Below are positions 3,672 to 13,488 of a stretch of DNA of 64,000 nt, piece after piece. The stretch spans positions 346,001 to 410,000 of the forward strand of contig NC_022041.1 in NCBI RefSeq assembly GCF_000444995.1. Reading direction: 5' to 3'. Under the pieces are notes generated by a model that made no database searches, was not told the DNA's origin, and was given only the letters and a program-made list of their open reading frames with translations. Each line of letters starts with the position of its first letter. The stretch's first letter is position 1. The translations under genes were made by a program, and so were the position numbers. This DNA comes from Paracoccus aminophilus JCM 7686. GTDB taxonomy: Bacteria > Pseudomonadota > Alphaproteobacteria > Rhodobacterales > Rhodobacteraceae.

Positions 3672-4292
3672 TCAGCTCTCGGACACCCCGGCCCAACCCG
3701 GCAGGAATTGCGATGTCGTGCTTTTCGCCAGAGCCAGCGCCTTTTGCAGCGCCTTGGCGTCATCCTTGGCGACCGTTTCTGGGTCGATCCGACGGCGCAT
3801 GTAATCGGCCCAGAGAAATTCGGTGAAGGGCGTCTCGACCTTGGCATAACCGCCAGCCCGGCGCAGCGCGCCCGAGAGCGAGCGATAGGGATCATCGGCC
3901 ATGCCCGAGACGGTTTTCGGCAGATCGCGGTGGGGGTGACGCAGCCCCTCGGCGTCATAGGGATGCAGCCAGTTGCGGTTGTCGAGATGGGTGAAGAACT
4001 CGTCCTTCTCCATGCCGGAAAGATCGGCGACGACATTGACCAGAACCGCCGTGACCCCTTCGAGATGCAGCGCCAGCGCCAGATGGTGGTTGTCGATCAG
4101 GTGATAGCGTTTCTTCGGGCCGAGCACGCAGGGCAGCAGGTGATGGCCAAGGAAATTGACCTCTTTCGACTGCGAGTCCTCGCGCCAGTCATGGCGTTTG
4201 CGCTGGACCTCCTTCATGCCGACGGTCATTTGTGTCGGCCGCAGGGCAATCGGATCGACGGTATGCAAATAGGCGGTGGACAAAGCCTTCAT
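3672..4292 (-). CDS. ParB-like nuclease family protein (ParBc_2 type)
   Basis: This 206-residue protein resembles the putative ParB-like nuclease family (ParBc_2), a stand-alone relative of the ParB N-terminal fold with no established role in partition. Visible features are the opening VDPIALRPTQMTVGMKEVQ (ParB-like substrate loop), LGHHLLPCVLG and the conserved YHLIDNHHLALALH segment. I start at the ATG at 4292, which has GGAG 8 nt upstream; longer versions reach into the P450 promoter region. It is divergent from the P450 and convergent with rplT. There is no ParA partner or helix-turn-helix domain, so chromosome partition is unlikely. Confidence 0.75.
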   Translation of the reverse strand: MKALSTAYLHTVDPIALRPTQMTVGMKEVQRKRHDWREDSQSKEVNFLGHHLLPCVLGPKKRYHLIDNHHLALALHLEGVTAVLVNVVADLSGMEKDEFFTHLDNRNWLHPYDAEGLRHPHRDLPKTVSGMADDPYRSLSGALRRAGGYAKVETPFTEFLWADYMRRRIDPETVAKDDAKALQKALALAKSTTSQFLPGWAGVSES

Positions 4293-4479
4293 GGGTGATC
4301 TCCGCACGGGACGGGTTTCCCGGATCGCTCGGCAGAGGCCGAGGTCGGGGCCGTCGTCGAGGATAACGAGGGCGGGGCGGCAAAGTTTCCCGCGATCGGC
4401 GGAGAGCGGCAGGTCGCGCGCGTAGGCTGCGGCACCGACACCCTTGCCAGCGGCGCGCGGCTTCGGCAGGCTGGGTCTC

Positions 4480-5832
4480 ATGTTGTCAGATCCCGCCCTG
4501 TTGCCGCCGCGCGTGCCCGCCCATACGAAGCCCTTGGGGGTCATCGGCTCGGCGCTGACGGCGCGGCGCAATGTGCTCGAACTGATCCCCGAGATCGCCT
4601 ATCGCCAGCCCATGGTCTCGGGCCGGACCGGTAAGCGCTGGCACATGGTCATGGACCCCGAGGCGCTGCGCCGCGTCCTCAAGGACCGGGTTGCGGATTA
4701 TCCGAAATCGCTGGTCACCAAGCTGATCCTTGGCCCCGCCGTCGGCCAATCGATGTTCGTGGCCGAGGGCGCGCACTGGCGCTGGCAGCGGCTCGCGGCG
4801 GCGCCCGCTTTCGCGCAGCGCCATGTCGAGGCGATGGCGCCGGTGATGACGGCGGCGGCGGCGGCCTCGCTGCGCCGGATCGCGGCGGCGCAAGGCGAGG
4901 TCGATGTCTTCGCCGAGATGGTGGCCGCGACCTTCGATGTGATTTCCGATGTGACCTTTTCGGGCGGCGAGGGCTTTGATCGCGACGCGGTTCATACCGC
5001 CATCGACAGCTATATTGCGGGAACCGCGCGGATCTCGCTGCTCGACATTCTCGGCCTGCCGTCCTGGGTGCCGCGTCCCGGTCGGCTGGTCGCCGGGCGC
5101 GAGTTGCGTCGACTCAAGCGCACCGCCGATCATGTGATCGACGAGCGCAAGCGGCAGGGCGCGCAGCCGGTGCCCGATCTCCTTGATCTCTTGCAAGCGG
5201 GGGAGGACCCCGAAACCGGGCGGCGCATGACCACGCCAGAGCTGCGCGACAACCTCTTGACCTTCATCGTCGCGGGCCATGAGACGACCGCGCTGACGCT
5301 CGCCTGGGCGCTCTATCTCTGCGCCTTCGCCCCCGAGGTGCAAGAGCGCGCGAGCGCCGAGGCCCGCGCGGCGCTGGGTGATCGCATCGCCGGGGCCGCG
5401 GATCTGCCCGCGCTGCCCTATCTGCGCCAGATCGTCGAAGAGGCGCTGCGGCTTTATCCGCCCGCCGCCTTTCTGTCGCGCACGGCTTTGGCGGCGGATG
5501 AGCTCGGCGGGCGCGAGATCCGCCCCGGCGATACGGTCATGCTGCCGATCTATGCGCTCCATCGCCACCATCTGCTGTGGGAGGAGCCCGACCGTTTCGA
5601 CCCTGAACGGTTCGCGCCCGGCGTCACCCGCGACCGCTTCGCCTTCCTGCCCTTCGGCGCGGGGCCGCGCATCTGCATCGGTGCGGGATTTGCCATGCAA
5701 GAGGCGGTGATCATCCTCGCGAGCTTGCTCGCGCGGTTCCGCTTCGAGACCACCGCCCGCGTGCCCACGCCGCGCATGATCCTGACCCTGCGCCCAGAAG
5801 GCGGGGTCTGGCTGCGGGCGATCCCGCGCTAG
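4480..5832 (+). CDS. Cytochrome P450
   Basis: A soluble bacterial cytochrome P450 (450 aa), a haem-thiolate monooxygenase. The I-helix oxygen-activation motif AGHETTALTLAW sits near residue 265, the K-helix ExxR is in EEALRLYPP, the PERF motif is DPERFAPG, and the haem loop FGAGPRICIG places the proximal cysteine at about residue 399. The start could be ATG 4444 or 4480; 4480 gives a more usual N-terminus, though its ribosome-binding site is weak. No ferredoxin, ferredoxin reductase or biosynthetic cluster adjoins it, so the substrate and electron donor cannot be read from context. Confidence 0.92.
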   Translation: MLSDPALLPPRVPAHTKPLGVIGSALTARRNVLELIPEIAYRQPMVSGRTGKRWHMVMDPEALRRVLKDRVADYPKSLVTKLILGPAVGQSMFVAEGAHWRWQRLAAAPAFAQRHVEAMAPVMTAAAAASLRRIAAAQGEVDVFAEMVAATFDVISDVTFSGGEGFDRDAVHTAIDSYIAGTARISLLDILGLPSWVPRPGRLVAGRELRRLKRTADHVIDERKRQGAQPVPDLLDLLQAGEDPETGRRMTTPELRDNLLTFIVAGHETTALTLAWALYLCAFAPEVQERASAEARAALGDRIAGAADLPALPYLRQIVEEALRLYPPAAFLSRTALAADELGGREIRPGDTVMLPIYALHRHHLLWEEPDRFDPERFAPGVTRDRFAFLPFGAGPRICIGAGFAMQEAVIILASLLARFRFETTARVPTPRMILTLRPEGGVWLRAIPR

Positions 5833-5899
5833 ACCCCCAATAGGCCCGCGCTGGCCCTTGGGGCGGCGCCGCGCTATCACGGGGCAAAGGGAGGCCCTC

Positions 5900-6238
5900 A
5901 TGTTCGTCATTTACCACAATCCGAAATGCTCGACCTCGCGCAAGGTTTTGGACCAGATCCGCGAAGCCGGGCACGCGCCCGTCGTCATCGACTACCTGAA
6001 AGACGGCTGGACACGGGGCGAGCTCTGGGGGCTCTTCGCCGCGGCAGGCGTCACGCCCGCGCAGGCGCTGCGGGTCAAGAATACCCCGGCCGAGGAGCTG
6101 GGTTTGATCGGCGCCGATGACGAGGCGACCATCGCCGCGATGGTCGCGCATCCCGTTCTGGTCGAGCGCCCGATTGTCGCCGCACCCAAGGGCGTCCGGC
6201 TTTGCCGTCCCGTCGAGCGGCTGCAAGAATTGCTCTGA
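5900..6238 (+). CDS. arsC: ArsC-type glutaredoxin-dependent arsenate reductase-like protein
   Basis: A 112-residue ArsC-family protein. It begins MFVIYHNPKCSTSRKVL, placing the catalytic cysteine at position 10, and ends with RPIVAAPKGVRLCRP, the substrate-binding segment of ArsC enzymes that reduce arsenate to arsenite using glutathione and glutaredoxin. AAAGGGAGG precedes the ATG. No arsB, acr3 or arsR gene is nearby, so a general thioredoxin-fold reductase role is possible. The gene fills the gap between the P450 and pheS on the same strand. Confidence 0.88.
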   Translation: MFVIYHNPKCSTSRKVLDQIREAGHAPVVIDYLKDGWTRGELWGLFAAAGVTPAQALRVKNTPAEELGLIGADDEATIAAMVAHPVLVERPIVAAPKGVRLCRPVERLQELL

Positions 6239-6306
6239 GGCTTTTCCAAGGCTTTTCCCGAGGGCCTGCGCGTGCTACTCCGCGCGGGTAATTCAGGAAA
6301 GCCGCC

Positions 6307-7389
6307 ATGTCCGACATCGAAGCCCTCCGCTCCACCTATCTGACCCGCATCGCGGAAGCCTCTGACGCGCCTGCGCTGGAAGAGGTCCGTCTGGCCGCCC
6401 TTGGCAAGAAGGGCGAGATCAGCGGCAAGATGAAGGAACTGGGCAAGATGAGCCCGGAAGAGCGCCAGACCACCGGCGCGAGCCTGAACCGCCTGCGCGA
6501 CGAGATCGACGCCGCCCTGCGCGCCCGCCGCGAGGGGCTGGAGAATGCCGCGCTCGACGCGCGTCTGGCCGCTGAATGGCTGGATGTGACCCTGCCGGGC
6601 CGCCCGCGCCGTCAGGGCTCGATCCATCCGGTGTCGCAGGTCATGGAAGAAGTCACCGAGATCTTCGCCGATATGGGCTTCTCCGTGGCTGAAGGGCCGC
6701 AGGTCGAAAGCGATTGGTTCAACTTTGACGCATTGAACATCCCGCCCGAGCATCCCGCGCGCCAGGAACACGACACGTTCTTCATGGCCCGCGCCGAGGG
6801 CGACGACCGCCCGCCGCATGTTTTGCGCACCCATACCTCGCCGGTGCAGGTCCGCGCGATGCTCGATCAGGGCGCGCCGGTCCGCGTGATCGCGCCGGGC
6901 CGCGTCTACCGCATGGATATGGACCAGACCCATACGCCGATGTTCCACCAGATCGAGGGCATGGCGATTGGTAAGGACATCTCGATGGCGAACCTGAAAT
7001 GGACGCTGGAAGAATTCTGCCGCGCCTTCTTCGAGGTCGATAACGTCGAATTGCGCTTCCGCGCGAGCCACTTCCCCTTCACGGAGCCCTCGGCAGAGGT
7101 CGATATCCGCTGCTCGTGGGAAGGCGGCAAGCTGACCATCGGCGAGGGCGATTCGTGGCTCGAAATCCTTGGCTCGGGCATGATGCATCCGAAGGTCCTG
7201 CGCGCGGGCGGGATCGACCCCGACCAATGGCAGGGCTTCGCCTTCGGCATGGGCATCGACCGGATCGCGATGCTGAAATACGGCATCCCGGACCTGCGCG
7301 CCTTCTTCGAAAGCGACCTGCGCTGGCTGCGTCACTATGGGTTCGCTGCGGGTGATGTGCCGAGCGTGAGCGGTGGTCTGAGTAGGTGA
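6307..7389 (+). CDS. pheS: Phenylalanine--tRNA ligase, alpha subunit
   Basis: The alpha subunit (360 aa) of phenylalanyl-tRNA synthetase, which pairs with PheT as an alpha2beta2 enzyme. The N-terminal coiled coil, then [50 protein letters not shown] and the C-terminal [19 protein letters not shown] are present, ending in the family's GGLSR. The ATG has AGGAAAG upstream. The gene looks complete. Unusually, pheT does not follow directly: about 1.7 kb of foreign-looking sequence starts at the pheS stop codon, and the first inserted gene overlaps that stop by 4 nt. Confidence 0.98.
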
Positions 7390-8105
7390 GTGGGGCCGCG
7401 GTAGACCTTCCGACCGTCGCTGCTGTCGGATCAGCGGTAGCGGCTGCAATTGGGGTAGTCGTCGCAATCGCATCGATGTTTGTAGCTAAGCAATCCGGGC
7501 GGGCCGCAGAAGATAGCGCTAGTTCAGCAAGGACTAGCTTGCGACTTGTAGCGGAGCAGTTACGCGTCGCAAGGCTTGGTAGTTTGGCGGAAAGTATGCT
7601 GCGACTTACTTTGCGCTTGGAGATCGCGCTTCAGCGAGCGCGTAGCTTAGTGCCGGAGTACGTGGCTGCGCGTGAAGGCACGGCTCCCGATTTGACTGCA
7701 GTCTACAGATTAAAGGTACACCGCGACGAGGTGTTACCGCTTTTGCAGCAACTTAAGGAAGATCTTTATATTATTCGTGTGATACGTTCGCCGGAGGGTG
7801 AACTCGCTCTATCCGCGACCGAAGGTGCCATTGTTCGCGCCCTTAGTGATCTGATTTCAAAGGTAAGAGTCGCTACGGGGCGGCTGGTTGGATACGATGA
7901 GTTTACCACTGATATTTTGCTTGGACGGCGTCCCGAAGCTAAAGGTAAAGCAGTACCTCCTGATCTCGAGAAGGAAATTGACCTAGCGATTTCCAGACAG
8001 GGCATATGGGGGGATGCGGTCGCGTCGGAGTTTGCCGCGCTTTTGCAGAAATTAACAAATTATTTGCAGCCGTTAGTTAAGGCGGAATATTCTGAATTGC
8101 AGTAA
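7386..8105 (+). CDS. Unknown membrane-anchored protein inserted after pheS (gene X)
   Basis: This 239-residue protein has one N-terminal hydrophobic helix (about residues 10-30, [15 protein letters not shown]) and then a long, mostly helical charged region with no motif I recognise. The GTG start overlaps the pheS stop, so translation is probably coupled; a later start is possible. Codon use is clearly different from its neighbours (frequent tta, ata, agt, gta) and GC is lower, which points to transfer. Its last 28 residues ([20 protein letters not shown] and flanks) resemble the tail of the broken ORF ending at 8547, so two members of this family have occupied the site. Function is unknown. 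Confidence 0.7.
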
Positions 8106-8144
8106 AGTGCGCGCTTTACTGGATACTTCGGGTTTGAACGGTGA

Positions 8145-8460
8145 ACCCCACCCACACCCGACCAATCCCACGCACCTTCCGCTAAAACCCGTCCAAACCT
8201 GACGGAGTCGACCCAGGAAATTCACCCTCTCCTGGTTCAAAGAGCATCTCGATACGATCGCCACCCTCGATGAGATCGCCAAGGCGCTGACCGATCTTGG
8301 ACTTGAGGTCGAAGAAGTCACCGACAGCGCGGCCAAGCTGAAGCCCTTTACCATTGCGAAGGTGCTTGAGGCCGGGCTGCACCTCGACGCCGACCGGTTG
8401 CGGGTTTTGAAGGTCGCGCCCGATGAGGGCGAGAAGCAGATCGTTTGCGGGGCGCCCGAT
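8145..8460 (+). repeat. Duplicated pheT upstream spacer plus pheT 5' end, upstream copy
   Basis: This stretch matches 9015-9330 without gaps at a constant offset of 870 bp. The match begins in the spacer (ACCCCACCCACACCC) and runs through the first 82 codons of pheT. By hand count identity is about 86 percent overall, highest at the left end (about 94 percent over the first 100 bp) and falling towards 75 percent at the right end. The start codon position reads AGG at 8215-8217 where pheT has ATG. Confidence 0.9.
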
Positions 8461-8547
8461 CTGGTGGCAGCGGAATCTGCAGCCTTGTTGAAACAGCGAA
8501 CCAGTCAATTACAGCCGCTGCTAAAGCGCGAGTATTTTCGCAACTAA
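8215..8547 (+). pseudogene. Truncated pheT copy fused in frame to the tail of a gene-X homologue
   Basis: An uninterrupted frame runs from the mutated pheT start (AGG at 8215) through 82 PheT-like codons ([13 protein letters not shown] ... [10 protein letters not shown]). It then switches abruptly at about 8461 to 28 residues ([14 protein letters not shown] ... KREYFRN) that match the C-terminus of gene X at roughly half the positions. The first usable start inside is GTG 8362. The remnant has only part of the PheT tRNA-binding domain and should not function as PheT. The junction suggests a deletion that joined a duplicate pheT to a second X-type gene. Confidence 0.8.
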
Positions 8548-8646
8548 CAGGTTTGCGACCTTCCGCATTGGGGTCTTTAAGTGGGCGCTCGAAGGTCCGC
8601 GCTGAGATGCGATCTAACGACGTGACGTGGCTTTGAGATATGGGGG

Positions 8647-8943
8647 CTAACCTTCACTATCCTCATCCTCCCGCCTGCTGCTGCGTTTCTTTATCAACCC
8701 CCGAGGCATGTACAGCCAGAAATACGCGACAGACCCTAGGATCATCGTTGCCACTCCCATGACGATGACGGCGGGAGGGCCTAGGCCGATGCTCACGCAC
8801 AGAAGCGCTAGCCATGCCGCGACCAGACCAAGAAGGCAGCGGGTGCAGTTTCGGGCGAGGTATAAAAGCCACATGAAGCCGCCGGCCAAGACCGGGGCGA
8901 GGGTATTGACCAGAAAGTCTTGGGTGGCGGTGCCGTGGTCCAT
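8647..8943 (-). CDS. Small hydrophobic membrane protein, unknown
   Basis: A 98-residue open frame on the opposite strand between the pheT fragment and intact pheT. It has two to three hydrophobic stretches (LAPVLAGGFMWLLYLA, CLLGLVAAWLALLCVSIGL, VIVMGVATMILGSVAYFWL) and a basic-acidic tail, so an inner-membrane location is likely. The start at ATG 8943 has no clear ribosome-binding site; the longer version from GTG 9027 runs into the pheT upstream repeat and is unlikely. I recognise no family; the size and layout are also compatible with holin-like proteins, but nothing specific shows this. It belongs to the inserted cargo. Confidence 0.45.
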   Translation of the reverse strand: MDHGTATQDFLVNTLAPVLAGGFMWLLYLARNCTRCLLGLVAAWLALLCVSIGLGPPAVIVMGVATMILGSVAYFWLYMPRGLIKKRSSRREDEDSEG

Positions 8944-9014
8944 TCGGGGGCTTTTGTGCAAGAAGGGTCTCACGCTTTTGCTCCCATGAACAGCCTTTCC
9001 ACGCAAGCGGATTG

Positions 9015-9330
9015 ACCCCACCCACACCCTACCAATCCCACGCGCCTTCCGCTAAAACCCGTCCAAACCTGACGGAGCCGACCCATGAAATTCACCCTCT
9101 CCTGGCTCAAAGAGCATCTCGATACGACCGCCACCCTCGATGAGATCACCGAGGCGCTGACCGACCTTGGCCTTGAGGTCGAAGAGGTCACCGACAGCGC
9201 GGCCAAGCTTGCGCCCTTTACCATCGCGAAGATCCTCGACGCCCAGCCCCATCCCGATGCGGACCGGCTGCGGGTGTGCCGCGTGATGACGGATGAGGGC
9301 GAGAAGCAGATCGTCTGCGGCGCGCCGAAT
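9015..9330 (+). repeat. pheT upstream spacer and 5' end, downstream (functional) copy
   Basis: This is the second member of the direct repeat with 8145-8460, here in its working context: the spacer carries GACGGAG before the pheT ATG at 9085, and the coding part belongs to the intact gene. Confidence 0.9.
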
Positions 9331-11472
9331 GCGCGGACCGGCATCACTGTCGTGCTGGCGAAACCGGGCGATTACGTTCCGGGCATCGACACGACGCTTG
9401 GCGTGGGCAAGATCCGCGGCATTGAGAGCCATGGCATGATGGCCTCCGAGCGCGAGCTTGAACTCTCGGACGAGCATAACGGCATCATCGAGCTGCCCTC
9501 GGGCGAGGTTGGCGAGCGTTTCGTTGACTGGCTGGCCGCGAACCGTCCCGAATCCGTCGACCCGGTGGTCGAGATCAAGATCACCCCGAACCGCCCCGAT
9601 GCGCTTGGTATCCACGGCATTGCCCGCGATCTCGCGGCGCGGGGTCTGGGCGTGTTGAAGCCGGTGAAAACGGCGGCGATCGCGGGCAAATTCGCCTCGC
9701 CGATCCGGGTCACCATTGCCGAGGATGCGGCCAAGGGCGCGCCCTATTTCGCCGGGCGTTTGATCCGCGGCGTCAAGAACGGCCCTTCGCCGGATTGGCT
9801 GCAAAAGCGGCTGAAGGCGATCGGGCTGCGTCCGATCTCGACGCTGGTCGATATCACCAACTATTTCACTTTCGATCTGAACCGTCCGCTGCATGTCTTT
9901 GACGCGGATAAGGTCGCGGGCGATCTGACCGTGCGCATGGCGCGGGCAGGCGAGGAGATTCTCGCGCTCGATGGCAAGACCTACCAACTGCCCGAAACCG
10001 CGATGGTCATTGCCGATGACAAAGGCCCGGAAAGCATTGCGGGCATCATGGGCGGCGAGCTCTCGGGCTGCACCGAGGAAACGGTCAATGTTTTCCTCGA
10101 AAGCGCCTATTGGGACCCGATCACGGTGGCGGCGGCTGGCCGCAAGCTGAAGGTTTCGTCGGATGCGCGCTACCGCTTTGAGCGCGGCGCGGACCCGGCC
10201 TTCACCCTGCCGGGGCTGGAGCTTGCGACACAGATGGTGCTTGATCTTTGCGGCGGCGAGCCGTCGGAACTGGTCGAGGCAGGGGCGGTCCCGGATACCA
10301 CGCGCGCCTATCGCCTCGACACCGACCGCACGAAAAGCCTCGTCGGGATGGAGATCAGCGCCGAGACCCAGCGCGCGACCCTGACCGCGCTTGGCTTTGT
10401 CATGCAGGGTGATCTCGCGCAGGTGCCGAGCTGGCGTCCCGATGTGCAGGGTGAGGCCGATTTGGTCGAAGAAATCGCCCGCATCGCCAGCCTGACCAAG
10501 CTGCAGGGCCAGCCTCTGCCGCGTCCGCAAGCGGGCGTGCCGAAGCCGGTCCTGACCATCCAGCAGGTGCGCGAGAAAGCCGCGCGCCGCACCGCCGCCG
10601 CTTTGGGCTACAACGAGGCCGTGACCTATAGCTTCATCGACCAGAAAGCCGCCGAAGCCTTTGGCGGAGGCGCCGAGGCCACGCGGGTCGAGAATCCGAT
10701 TTCCTCGGAAATGACCCATCTGCGCCCCGATCTGCTGCCGGGCCTTCTGGCCGCTGCGGCGCGCAATCAGGCGCGCGGCATTGCCGATCTCGCGCTCTTC
10801 GAATGCGGTCCGGTCTTTTCTGGCGGCGAGCCGGGCGAGCAGGCGGTGCAGATCGCGGGTCTGCTGGTCGGCGCGACCTCGCCGCGCGATCCCTTCGGCT
10901 CGCGCCGTCCGGTCGATCTTTACGACGCCAAGGCCGATGCCGAGGCGGTTCTGTCCGCCGTTGGCGCGCCGCAGAAGGTGCAGGTCAACCGCAAGCTCGA
11001 CGCGTGGTGGCATCCCGGTCGCTCGGGCGTGATGGCTCTGGGGCCGAACAAGCTCGCGACCTTTGGCGAGGTGCATCCGCGCATCCTCAAGCACTTCGGC
11101 ATCAAGGGGGCGGCGGTGGCCTTCACCGTGAACCTCCAGAACGTGCCGCTGCCCAAGGTCAAGACGCCGACCCGGCCCGCGCTCGAGATCTCTGATCTGC
11201 AAGCGGTCGAGCGTGATTTCGCCTTTGTCGTCGATGGCCAGGTCGAGGCGCTGACCTTGGTCAATGCCGCCGCCGGAGCCGATAAGGCGCTGATCGAGAA
11301 GGTTTCGGTCTTCGACCAATTCACCGGCATGGAAGGCGGCAAGAAGTCGATCGCGATCACCGTGCGGCTTCAGCCCAAGGATAAGACCCTGACCGATGCC
11401 GAGATCGAGGCGGTCGGCGCGAAGATCGTCGAAAAGGTCACGAAAGCGACCGGCGGCACGCTGCGCAGCTAA
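9085..11472 (+). CDS. pheT: Phenylalanine--tRNA ligase, beta subunit
   Basis: The beta subunit (795 aa) of phenylalanyl-tRNA synthetase. Domains in order are the N-terminal MKFTLSWLKEHL, the EMAP/tRNA-binding OB fold from about residue 45 (PHPDADRLRVCRV, VCGAPN), the B3/B4 editing region around residues 210-370, B5, the catalytic-like core, and a C-terminal anticodon-binding FDX-ACB domain (last ~95 residues, FDQFTGMEGGKKSIAI). The length is normal and no frameshift is visible. GACGGAG precedes the ATG. It is separated from pheS by about 1.7 kb of inserted sequence, so it may depend on read-through or on a promoter in the insert. Confidence 0.97.
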   Translation: MKFTLSWLKEHLDTTATLDEITEALTDLGLEVEEVTDSAAKLAPFTIAKILDAQPHPDADRLRVCRVMTDEGEKQIVCGAPNARTGITVVLAKPGDYVPGIDTTLGVGKIRGIESHGMMASERELELSDEHNGIIELPSGEVGERFVDWLAANRPESVDPVVEIKITPNRPDALGIHGIARDLAARGLGVLKPVKTAAIAGKFASPIRVTIAEDAAKGAPYFAGRLIRGVKNGPSPDWLQKRLKAIGLRPISTLVDITNYFTFDLNRPLHVFDADKVAGDLTVRMARAGEEILALDGKTYQLPETAMVIADDKGPESIAGIMGGELSGCTEETVNVFLESAYWDPITVAAAGRKLKVSSDARYRFERGADPAFTLPGLELATQMVLDLCGGEPSELVEAGAVPDTTRAYRLDTDRTKSLVGMEISAETQRATLTALGFVMQGDLAQVPSWRPDVQGEADLVEEIARIASLTKLQGQPLPRPQAGVPKPVLTIQQVREKAARRTAAALGYNEAVTYSFIDQKAAEAFGGGAEATRVENPISSEMTHLRPDLLPGLLAAAARNQARGIADLALFECGPVFSGGEPGEQAVQIAGLLVGATSPRDPFGSRRPVDLYDAKADAEAVLSAVGAPQKVQVNRKLDAWWHPGRSGVMALGPNKLATFGEVHPRILKHFGIKGAAVAFTVNLQNVPLPKVKTPTRPALEISDLQAVERDFAFVVDGQVEALTLVNAAAGADKALIEKVSVFDQFTGMEGGKKSIAITVRLQPKDKTLTDAEIEAVGAKIVEKVTKATGGTLRS

Positions 11473-11499
11473 GCGGCGTTTCTCACATCTGCCAAAACA

Positions 11500-11527
11500 A
11501 AGCCCCGCAAGTGATTGCGGGGCTTTT
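11500..11527 (+). terminator. Rho-independent terminator after pheT
   Basis: An 11-bp stem (AAGCCCCGCAA / TTGCGGGGCTT) with a GTGA loop is followed by T residues, 28 nt after the pheT stop. Confidence 0.9.
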
Positions 11528-11611
11528 CACATCAATTGGGCAGGCGCGGTGAATGGACATCCGCGTTTGCACAATCCCATAATGCCAAGGGGTTGATCTG
11601 GCGGAGAAAAC

Positions 11612-12057
11612 ATGAGCGGCGATAGATTTTTCGGTTTCTGGATCTCGGTCCGGGACGAAAGCAAGGCGCGCTATGCCGTGCAGATGGCGGGGCTGCCGGT
11701 TTTGACTTTGGGAGCGAATGCCGCCGTGCTCGCCTTGGATCTGGCGGTGAAATCCCCGATGTGCCAATGGCCGTCCCTGCCTTTGCCGTGATCGCCGCCC
11801 TGCTGGTCTTCATCGCCTTTCGGCTGCGTGCGGGGCGCGCGGCATGGGTTCCGCTGGCCTTCCTCGCCATCCTGAGCTTTCTGGCGGTCGAGCTCTTCAC
11901 CAGCTTCCATCTCTTGCAGATCGTCGAGCCGTCGCGCGCCTTTGACCTCTTCATTCTAGCAAAATGGGTGGTTCCGCTGTTCTGTCTGGTCTTGGCCTTC
12001 AGCGGCTTGCGTGGCTGGCTCTGGCTCAGACGGAACGGCGTCGCGCAAAGCTGGTAG
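11612..12057 (+). pseudogene. Membrane protein gene, probably frameshifted
   Basis: ATG 11612 has GGCGGAG 6 nt upstream and opens MSGDRFFGFWISVRDESKAR, followed by a first hydrophobic helix, but this frame stops at 11791 after 59 codons. A second frame that overlaps it (11761-12057) continues with three more hydrophobic helices (AVPAFAVIAALLVFIAF, WVPLAFLAILSFLAVELF, WVVPLFCLVLAFSGL) and has no ribosome-binding site of its own. Joining the frames near 11745-11760 would give one four-helix protein of about 148 residues. Either the gene is broken, the base call is wrong, or two overlapping small genes exist; the first two are more likely. I recognise no family. Confidence 0.55.
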
Positions 12058-12104
12058 CTGGCGCGGCCTGAGAGGTGGCGCCGACGCGCCACCTCCGCTT
12101 GGGC

Positions 12105-12638
12105 TTATTTCAGCAGCGCCTTGATCTTGGGGTTTTGGGCCAGTTCATAGGCCGTCTGCTTCTTATAGGTGGTCTTGGCGTTTTTATCGGCCCCGGCTTC
12201 CAGCAGGGCCTTGACCACCTCGGGGTCGTCATCAGAGGAAACCGCCATCAGCAGCGGCGTCCAACCGTCATAATCGCCGACTGCATTCACATCCGCGCCG
12301 TTCGCGATCAGCAGGCGGACCATATCGGCAGGGCCCCAATAGGCGGCGGTGTGAAGCGGCGTCCAGCCCTCGTCGGTTTTCAAATTCACATCCGCGCCGC
12401 AGGCAAGCATCGCCTTCACCACGTCGAACTTCTTGGCCATGACCGTCGTGGCGAAATGAGTGTCGCCGCCGCTGTCTCGCCCGTTGGGGTCAAGCTCTGC
12501 GCAGTTGGTCTGGGCGTTTGCGGTCTGGGGCAGGGCGGCAAGGCTTGGCAGAGCAAGCGCGGCACAGAGCGCCAGACGGATGGCCGGACGGATGGCCGGA
12601 CGGAGGGCCGGGCGGAGGGGAAGCAGATTTGAAAACAC
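12105..12638 (-). CDS. Secreted or periplasmic ankyrin-repeat protein
   Basis: From the GTG at 12638 (GAGGAA 4 nt upstream) this encodes 177 residues: a basic signal-peptide region, a hydrophobic core (LALCAALALPSLAALP), a likely cleavage site near ANAQT, and then about three ankyrin repeats (DEGWTPLHTAAYWG, DYDGWTPLLMAVSS, QTAYELAQNPKIKALL). Ankyrin repeats mediate protein-protein contacts; periplasmic bacterial examples are known, but the partner is not visible. The n-region of the signal peptide is built from a 12-bp tandem repeat encoding RPAI/RPAL units. An ATG further upstream (12719) would make an implausibly long leader. Confidence 0.8.
   Translation of the reverse strand: MFSNLLPLRPALRPAIRPAIRLALCAALALPSLAALPQTANAQTNCAELDPNGRDSGGDTHFATTVMAKKFDVVKAMLACGADVNLKTDEGWTPLHTAAYWGPADMVRLLIANGADVNAVGDYDGWTPLLMAVSSDDDPEVVKALLEAGADKNAKTTYKKQTAYELAQNPKIKALLK
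12577..12620 (+). repeat. 12-bp tandem repeat inside a signal-peptide coding region
   Basis: Two perfect copies of CGGATGGCCGGA (12577-12588 and 12589-12600) are followed by a diverged copy (CGGAGGGCCGGG, 12601-12612) and a partial one. Because the unit is 12 bp, gain or loss keeps the ankyrin gene in frame and only changes the number of RPAI/RPAL tetrapeptides. Confidence 0.9.
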
Positions 12639-12789
12639 GATTTCCTCGATATGAACGATATGTCTTGGAAAGTGTTTACATGCCGAAAGTCCGGGATCAA
12701 CTCCCGGACAGATATTCAAGACAAAAGGCGGCTTTGGAAGATTGCGAGCGCGTCAGACGACGCGCTCGCAGCAGGGCGCAGCGCGAGGC

Positions 12790-13488
12790 TTACGCGCCGA
12801 CCAGAATGCCGCGCTGAACCGCCGGGCGGGCGAGGAAGCGGTCAAGATAGGCCTGAACATTGGCAAAGCCGTCCATGCCGGTTTCCTTCTCGGCCTCGTA
12901 ATGGACGCGCACGCCGCGCAGCCAGGGCGCGATCGCCATATCGGCGATGGAATATTCGCCCGTCACCCAGTCGCGGCCGACCAGTTGCTTGTCCAACACG
13001 CCAAGCAGGCGGCGCGCCTCGTTATAGTAGCGGGTGCGCGGACGCGGGTCCTCGATCTCGCTGCCTTTGTAGCGGTGGAAATAGCCGACCTGACCGAACA
13101 TCGGCCCGACGCCGCCCATCTGCCACATCAACCATTGGATGGTGTGATAGCGCGCAGCGCCCTCTTTGGGCAGGAATTGGCCGGTCTTGTCGCCCAGATA
13201 GATCAGCATGGCGCCGGTCTCCCACAGGCCCAGAGGCTTGCCGTCGGGTCCGTTCGGATCGATCAGCGCGGGGATCTTGTTGTTGGGGTTCAGCGAGAGA
13301 TATTCCGGCGTCATCTGGTCTTCGGGATTGCCGATGCTGATGCGATGCGCCTCATAATCGAGCCCGGTTTCCTCCAGCATAACCGAGACTTTGATGCCAT
13401 TCGGCGTCGCCAGCGTATAGAGCTGCAACACATCGGGACGCGTGGCCGGCCAGCGGCGCGTGATCGGAAAATCGGAAAGTGACGTCAT
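12790..13488 (-). CDS. Glutathione S-transferase family protein (YghU/Ure2p-like)
   Basis: A 232-residue glutathione transferase. The thioredoxin-fold half carries LYTLATPNGIKVSVMLEE, then NPNNKIPALIDP and ETGAMLIYLGDKTG, which supply the glutathione-binding loop. The C-terminal helical half contains DWVTGEYSIADMAIAPWL, the usual N-capping region. The early TPNG segment and DQMTPEYLSLNPN point to the bacterial YghU/YfcG (nu-class, Ure2p-like) group, which often has disulfide-reductase activity. The start is ATG 13488; the open frame continues upstream antisense to mscL but that part is shadow. Confidence 0.9.
   Translation of the reverse strand: MTSLSDFPITRRWPATRPDVLQLYTLATPNGIKVSVMLEETGLDYEAHRISIGNPEDQMTPEYLSLNPNNKIPALIDPNGPDGKPLGLWETGAMLIYLGDKTGQFLPKEGAARYHTIQWLMWQMGGVGPMFGQVGYFHRYKGSEIEDPRPRTRYYNEARRLLGVLDKQLVGRDWVTGEYSIADMAIAPWLRGVRVHYEAEKETGMDGFANVQAYLDRFLARPAVQRGILVGA

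Follow-up and report, generated by a model that had tools for sequence, protein, structure and literature searches.

Phenylalanyl-tRNA synthetase is an obligate alpha2beta2 enzyme, and the genes of its two subunits, pheS and pheT, are a textbook case of a gene pair that stays together. The stretch analysed here, hereafter the window, consists of 64,000 nucleotides of Paracoccus aminophilus JCM 7686 (NC_022041.1, positions 346,001-410,000; all coordinates below are window positions unless a contig is named) and holds a pheS-pheT pair split by accessory DNA. In core-gene integration hotspots, conserved core flanks enclose variable and mostly unrelated contents, which is also the case at this junction; the pheS-pheT slot differs in that it sits inside the operon of an essential two-subunit enzyme, it often carries one or two small genes that overlap the pheS stop, and a leader of its own precedes pheT in genomes with long gaps. 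Mosaic operons and in situ gene displacement resemble it through the pheT 5' ends of other-species type found beside the resident pheT in two genomes, whereas the present case concerns one junction throughout a family and includes at least one clean swap of a gene as well as visible scars of recombination. The cassettes of integrons are likewise interchangeable single-gene units in a fixed slot, but no tyrosine integrase accompanies the pheS-pheT slot in 13 of 15 genomes (a search that did not extend to attC sites). Anti-phage systems collected in PADLOC-DB also include small uncharacterised membrane proteins at variable sites, yet gene X, the resident cargo of the window, has no match there at 0.01 and the matches of other cargos are weak (best E 9.9e-05). 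Among the open-licence papers listed, no published description of a pheS-pheT exchange slot was found. From the comparisons reported below, the pheS-pheT junction of Rhodobacteraceae is probably a cargo hotspot, in which recombination through the flanking genes would swap the cargo.

The spacing of the two genes was first considered in 125 Paracoccus genomes, the own genome (G000) included (G numbers denote genomes, L numbers fetched loci). pheS was found in 122 of these congeners and pheT in 124. Both genes stood on one contig and strand in 87 of the 122, with pheT downstream in 80, of which 75 formed junctions of 435-10464 bp and five were separated by 30 kb or more. The remaining 35 had the genes on opposite strands (12 genomes) or on different contigs (23 genomes, some possibly through draft breaks), and an adjacent pair was seen in none of the 99 congeners carrying both genes on one contig. 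In one genome with opposite strands, G025, the two genes are about 4.9 kb apart. Two other core pairs served as controls, their distances being measured between profile matches and not between gene ends. The rpsB-tsf distance was 369-443 bp in all 40 congeners with both genes (41 searched), and the glyQ-glyS distance was 484-530 bp in 35 of 41, with a maximum of 1252 bp and no unlinked case. Instead, pheS-pheT in 38 genomes of the control set showed a median of 1695 bp for the 27 linked pairs, and 11 pairs were unlinked or far apart. Since the control pairs are nearly constant, general genome shuffling does not explain the pheS-pheT junction. This variability is observed directly: the same two core genes flank the junction, its contents vary, and the distance between them is more variable than for other core pairs. 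Besides, about 700 bp of extra DNA separate glyQ and glyS in four of the 41 congeners (G028, G096, G124, G093), and the glycyl-tRNA synthetase pair, a second two-subunit synthetase, may thus host rarer inserts; the fetched glyQ-glyS region of G124 was left out of the analysis.

The split extends to the whole family. The family sample comprised 120 genomes from 119 genera, 114 of them with both ends scored besides the own genome and one congener (the genus and family sets overlap, and their counts are not added). The two genes lay on one contig and strand in 89 of the 114, among which four showed a 4-nt ATGA overlap, nine a distance of 30-147 bp and 73 a distance of 154-3026 bp, while two were farther apart and one was reversed. 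For the analysis of contents, 80 of 86 other-genus junctions were used, the six with the longest gaps under 9 kb being omitted (G143, G227, G180, G190, G189, G172). Outside the family the picture is different. In a sample of 192 Alphaproteobacteria, 51 genomes other than the own one showed both ends among the matches listed, 49 of them outside Rhodobacteraceae, and the pair was tight in 48 of these 49: one match spanned the junction in 14, at most 76 nt separated the matched ends in 34, and 492 nt in the last one. Among the same matches, two further family members had 1869 and 21877 nt between the matched ends. Because non-family Alphaproteobacteria keep the pair tight, a tight pheS-pheT pair is likely ancestral, and the open junction characterises Rhodobacteraceae. 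The initial annotation had described pheS and pheT as normally adjacent, which applies to other Alphaproteobacteria and not to Rhodobacteraceae, where the split is family-wide.

Within the gap, contents turn over between close relatives. In a comparison that left out the last 80 nt before pheT, 16 of the 35 pairs with pheS 93-97% identical shared no gap DNA. The two nearest relatives of the own genome (pheS identity 0.917 and 0.912 over 600 nt) have no gap DNA in common with it, the pheT leader aside; an arrangement shared exactly by close relatives, which the initial annotation had regarded as telling against its reading, was therefore not seen. The tidiest example is given by L048 and L051, whose pheS genes are 95.7% identical over their last 300 nt. 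Homology ends at the pheS stop, gives way to two unrelated cargos of 119 and 215 codons, and returns at most 10 nt from each cargo stop. As judged from this alignment, the two loci differ by a whole-gene swap between the pheS stop and the cargo stop. Other pairs have less tidy borders, as illustrated by L032 and L034, in which homology is lost 9 nt short of the pheS end and returns about 100 and 240 nt past the cargo stops.

Many of the exchanged genes begin exactly where pheS ends. An open reading frame (ORF) was called coupled when it had at least 80 codons and a start within -5 to +6 of the pheS stop. Such an ORF was present in 41 of the 75 congener junctions (36 of them by a 4-nt overlap) and in 22 of the 80 other-genus junctions, and 51 of these 63 ORFs lay at the -3 offset, a geometry read directly from the sequences. 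Of 140 gaps measuring 240 bp or more, 70 had the coupled frame open for at least 80 codons and 22 the next frame; the third frame is that of pheS and closed by definition. A coupled-type ORF also followed 10 of the 19 far or unlinked pheS genes fetched from congeners, and for four cargo proteins of other genomes the database prediction starts at the codon overlapping pheS. The 41 congener cargos, once aligned, had no invariant column except the start and were mostly unrelated proteins. A strongly hydrophobic stretch occurred in 36 of 56 cargos (seven YrhK-like ones excluded), against at most 28 in 200 shuffles. The proposal of a repeated landing site for cargo on an essential operon is supported by these results, as all 75 linked congener junctions hold inserts, the contents differ among many of them and 41 carry a coupled ORF.

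In the window itself, the elements named by the initial annotation were all present. pheS (6307-7389, plus strand), the left homologous anchor, ends with the C-terminal GGLSR followed by its stop codon, and intact pheT (9085-11472, plus strand), the right one, encodes 795 amino acids in which PheT domains were found. Gene X (7386-8105, plus strand) has 239 codons from a GTG, its proposed start, and an N-terminal hydrophobic segment; this GTG is part of the GTGA at 7386-7389 (plus strand) that overlaps the pheS stop and reproduces the -3 offset of most coupled cargos. Further downstream on the same strand are a first copy of the pheT leader (8145-8214), with the motif CGACCA in place of the CTACCA of copy 2, then pheT' (8215-8457), that is 81 codons of the pheT 5' end with ATG changed to AGG. 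At about 8458, the frame of pheT' continues in frame into the X' tail (8458-8547), the final 29 codons and stop (8545-8547) of an X homologue. A small membrane gene follows on the minus strand (8647-9027; 126 amino acids from a GTG or 98 from an internal ATG), then a second copy of the pheT leader (9015-9084, plus strand) bearing the promoter-like sequence motif CTACCA-spacer-GCTAA. A direct repeat thus joins 8145-8444 to 9015-9314 with 87% identity across 300 nt, the two leaders being identical at 67 of 70 nt and pheT codons 2-81 at 202 of 240 nt. X has a GC content of 0.53, against 0.65 in pheS and pheT. Members of the antisense membrane gene family were present in 10 of the 75 congener gaps, the own one included.

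Partial pheT 5' ends beside an intact pheT were found in three of the 75 congener gaps (L041, L055, L067), namely in the window and in two other Paracoccus species, so that the duplicated end which the initial annotation proposed to look for in other strains at the same position exists. Instead of marking a landing-site repeat, it is better read as a scar of exchange between strains. The scar of L067 is 88.0% identical to pheT of G084 and 80.1% to its own pheT, which ranks only 9th; that of L055 is 84.7% identical to G073 and 78.2% to its own pheT (rank 13th). In the window, the divergence of pheT' is concentrated after residue 42, and residues 43-70 match the allele of G022, the closest one, at 24 of 28 positions and the own pheT at 18 of 28. 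The three scars would fit an exchange of the whole junction between species with one illegitimate crossover.

We infer that recombination is what moves the cargo. DNA from another strain would recombine through the conserved, essential pheS and pheT flanks, swapping whatever lies between them, and small genes placed directly behind the pheS stop would be translated by coupling to pheS, as the RTGA overlaps suggest. Sometimes only one of the two crossovers would be homologous and its partner illegitimate, and part of the pheT that was replaced or brought in would then stay behind. The window most likely represents one such scar, a parent of the type pheS-X-leader-pheT having been joined to one of the type X'-antisense gene-leader-pheT, with the breakpoints close to codon 81 in one pheT and to codon -29 in X'. 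With the join at these points, X and an intact pheT would survive, and pheT' and the X' tail would be debris.

Several observations weigh against recombination through the flanks as the source of this variability. pheT' of the window is 85.0% identical to G022 and 84.6% to the own pheT, which ranks 2nd; with identities so nearly equal, this copy may be foreign or native. Its leader, besides, is almost that of the resident gene (the 67 of 70 nt given above). None of the 73 other-genus gaps searched contained a partial pheT. At 93-97% pheS identity, 17 of the 35 pairs share at least 30% of their gap DNA, and all three pairs at 97% or more do so. A coupled ORF is lacking in 34 of the 75 congener junctions, and the seven coupled YrhK-like ORFs are alike (60-96%) and look vertically inherited; not every cargo case is therefore one of turnover. 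A start of X at Met71 would abolish both its overlap with pheS and its hydrophobic segment. The model gives no account of how a first gene landed exactly on the pheS stop. Finally, the leader motif described below was written after the sequences had been seen, and it fails to match in 6 of the 54 long gaps and at 8 of the 20 far or unlinked pheT genes that were fetched.

Upstream of pheT, two promoter-like leaders recur, one of the type TTGAC-spacer-TTCAAG and one of the type CTACCA-spacer-GCTAA. Either was present in 48 of the 54 gaps over 800 bp and in 1 of the 21 shorter ones, as well as before 12 of the 20 far or unlinked pheT genes fetched. The motif matched 17 of 3750 stretches of shuffled upstream sequence and none of 450 segments taken from within pheS; since it was defined post hoc, these controls test chance only. 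In 17 of the 21 shorter gaps (800 bp or less), the pheT start instead marks the end of an ORF with at least 80 codons. pheT would thus be expressed either through overlap with the last cargo gene, in short gaps, or from its own promoter-like leader, in long gaps and unlinked genes. Coupling would have come first, and the acquisition of an own promoter would then have freed the junction for antisense genes and for the separation of the pair.

These leaders are also what lends some weight to a rather unlikely alternative, according to which the promoter gained by pheT left the junction as free space, where neutral, functionless DNA has since collected. The motif does accompany long gaps and unlinked genes, nearly half of the congener junctions have no coupled ORF, and matches to Pfam families cover at most 16 of 41 congener cargos. 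However, 20 of the 21 gaps of 800 bp or less have no leader motif, and the ORFs that end at the pheT start, present in most of these gaps, are mostly lower in GC than pheS. Neither the excess of hydrophobic stretches over shuffles, nor the recurrence of some cargo types across several genera (by eye), nor the absence of comparable drift at rpsB-tsf would be expected of such a space.

For the window, an origin without any foreign DNA is doubtful: X, leader and pheT would have been duplicated in tandem within one lineage and then decayed. The near-identity of the leaders, the 202 of 240 nt shared by pheT' and pheT and the homology of X with X' speak for it. Indeed, the 29 codons of X' match residues 210-238 of X at 16 of 29 positions, and none of 5000 shuffles of the tail reached this score. 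Yet X and X' share just these 16 residues although the leaders beside them are nearly the same, residues 43-70 of pheT' are closer to G022 than to the own pheT, and the scars of L055 and L067 are clearly closer to the pheT of other species than to that of their own genome.

Site-specific integration is improbable. A recombinase would here recognise the 3' end of pheS, and the cargo genes would be remnants of larger elements, as the many cargo ORFs starting exactly at the pheS stop might suggest. The search for tyrosine integrases (E 1e-8) covered the own genome and 14 further ones, most of which have long gaps or separated genes. One integrase lies within the 31-kb gap of G015, and another about 300 bp past the end of pheT in G051 (G051:C4:287784-288227). 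In the other 13 of the 15 genomes, none was found at the junction or next to it (serine recombinases and transposases were not part of the search); the nearest lay 12 kb upstream of pheS in the own genome, outside the window (G000:C1:339501-340010), and at 18 kb in G105. The statement that no integrase is visible at the junction therefore holds for the tyrosine type, the only one searched, in the gap of the window. Moreover, the pheS 3' end is not repeated at the far border, the only long direct repeat being the pheT leader with the pheT 5' end, and no piece of pheS was found in 148 gaps of at least 100 bp. The last codons of pheS bear a closer resemblance to a ribosome-binding site than to an att site. 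Six or more consecutive G occur at 10 of 41 coupled and 2 of 34 other congener ends; in other genera the figures are 12 of 26 and 7 of 54. Ribosome-binding strength at this end, also tried, gave p 0.0002 in the family set and p 0.11 in the genus set and was not retained (all uncorrected for kinship). The model of a tyrosine integrase with an att site was hence set aside, for want of a flanking pheS repeat and of pheS pieces, and with an integrase at only 2 of 15 junctions. An assembly artefact can be practically dismissed, as 38 of 240 coding bases distinguish the two pheT copies, the junction lies inside a 3.6-Mb contig and two other assemblies have a comparable layout.

Under the favoured reading of a hotspot exchanged through its flanks, X is the current cargo of the window, and its start is likely the GTG overlapping the pheS stop. 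The sole database prediction of X, of 169 amino acids, begins instead at Met71 and would not overlap pheS. The 4-nt coupled overlap reported by the initial annotation is accordingly present as an in-frame GTG within GTGA, whereas its role as the start of X is uncertain. An open frame of the length of X arose in 1 of 20000 shuffles of its own bases. A protein search with X in 5.8 billion proteins found the own locus alone, and a weak local match linked X to the cargo of G083 (L075; 26%, E 4e-05 for this single comparison). X had no Pfam, PADLOC or PHROGs match at 0.01, weaker rows being at chance level (best defence-family row 0.057), and no plasmid match was found. A known anti-phage defence gene, tried as an identity for X, was thus rejected at the PADLOC threshold. 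No RNA family was detected in 7000-9500 and no tRNA gene in 4000-13000.

Among the other cargos, a few recognisable types recur. Four of the 41 congener cargos match DUF2513 (PF10711) and five from other genera are alike by eye; in two genomes, a membrane gene stands between the DUF2513-like gene and pheT, overlapping each of them by 4 nt. A family with a hydrophobic helix and a Y..QK..D motif has 14 proteins, from a search of limited sensitivity in the same 5.8 billion, and the database start overlaps pheS for four of them. By Pfam, seven of the 41 congener cargos are YrhK-like and one is MazF-like. The cargos match eight PHROGs families, family 585 being matched by four of the 41, and PADLOC gave three families on the 41 with one weak member each. 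Our tentative best guess for their function is membrane-anchored defence or competition. The YrhK-like gene, of 96 amino acids, overlaps the pheS stop in L025, L028, L050, L052, L062, L065 and L077, and may be a case of a cargo gene becoming fixed.

More broadly, the junction of an obligate enzyme pair has probably become an exchange slot in one bacterial family, and in some of its lineages the two genes have moved apart. It is conceivable, though rather speculative, that Rhodobacteraceae reserve this locus for the exchange of small defence or competition proteins, most of them membrane-anchored, which would be translationally coupled to an essential enzyme and traded between species on short DNA fragments. 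Gene transfer agents are common in Rhodobacterales and would fit the fragment size as a possible vehicle. The pheS-pheT gaps provide an easily found list of small uncharacterised genes, and the slot offers a clear test of how translational coupling might admit foreign genes to an essential operon; promoter activity of the leaders and expression of X from its overlapping GTG are what we would predict there.

DUF2513 was tried as a marker of the site and rejected, just 3 of 12 congener copies being at pheS. In phages, DUF2513 gave four partial matches, none covering 80%, and no paper on it was found in the open-licence literature. The own genome carries a DUF2513 gene away from pheS (G000:C1:3037563-3037862). 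In three Paracoccus genomes, a MazF/PemK-like gene lies directly behind pheS (L034:3671-4057, minus strand, by Pfam; L181 and L189 by eye). The cargo of L005, L004 and L038 appears by eye to combine a winged-helix part with a C-terminal membrane segment, against the N-terminal type of X. Finally, the translation of an ORF at 12105-12719 of the window (minus strand) resembles an ankyrin-repeat protein, as judged by eye.

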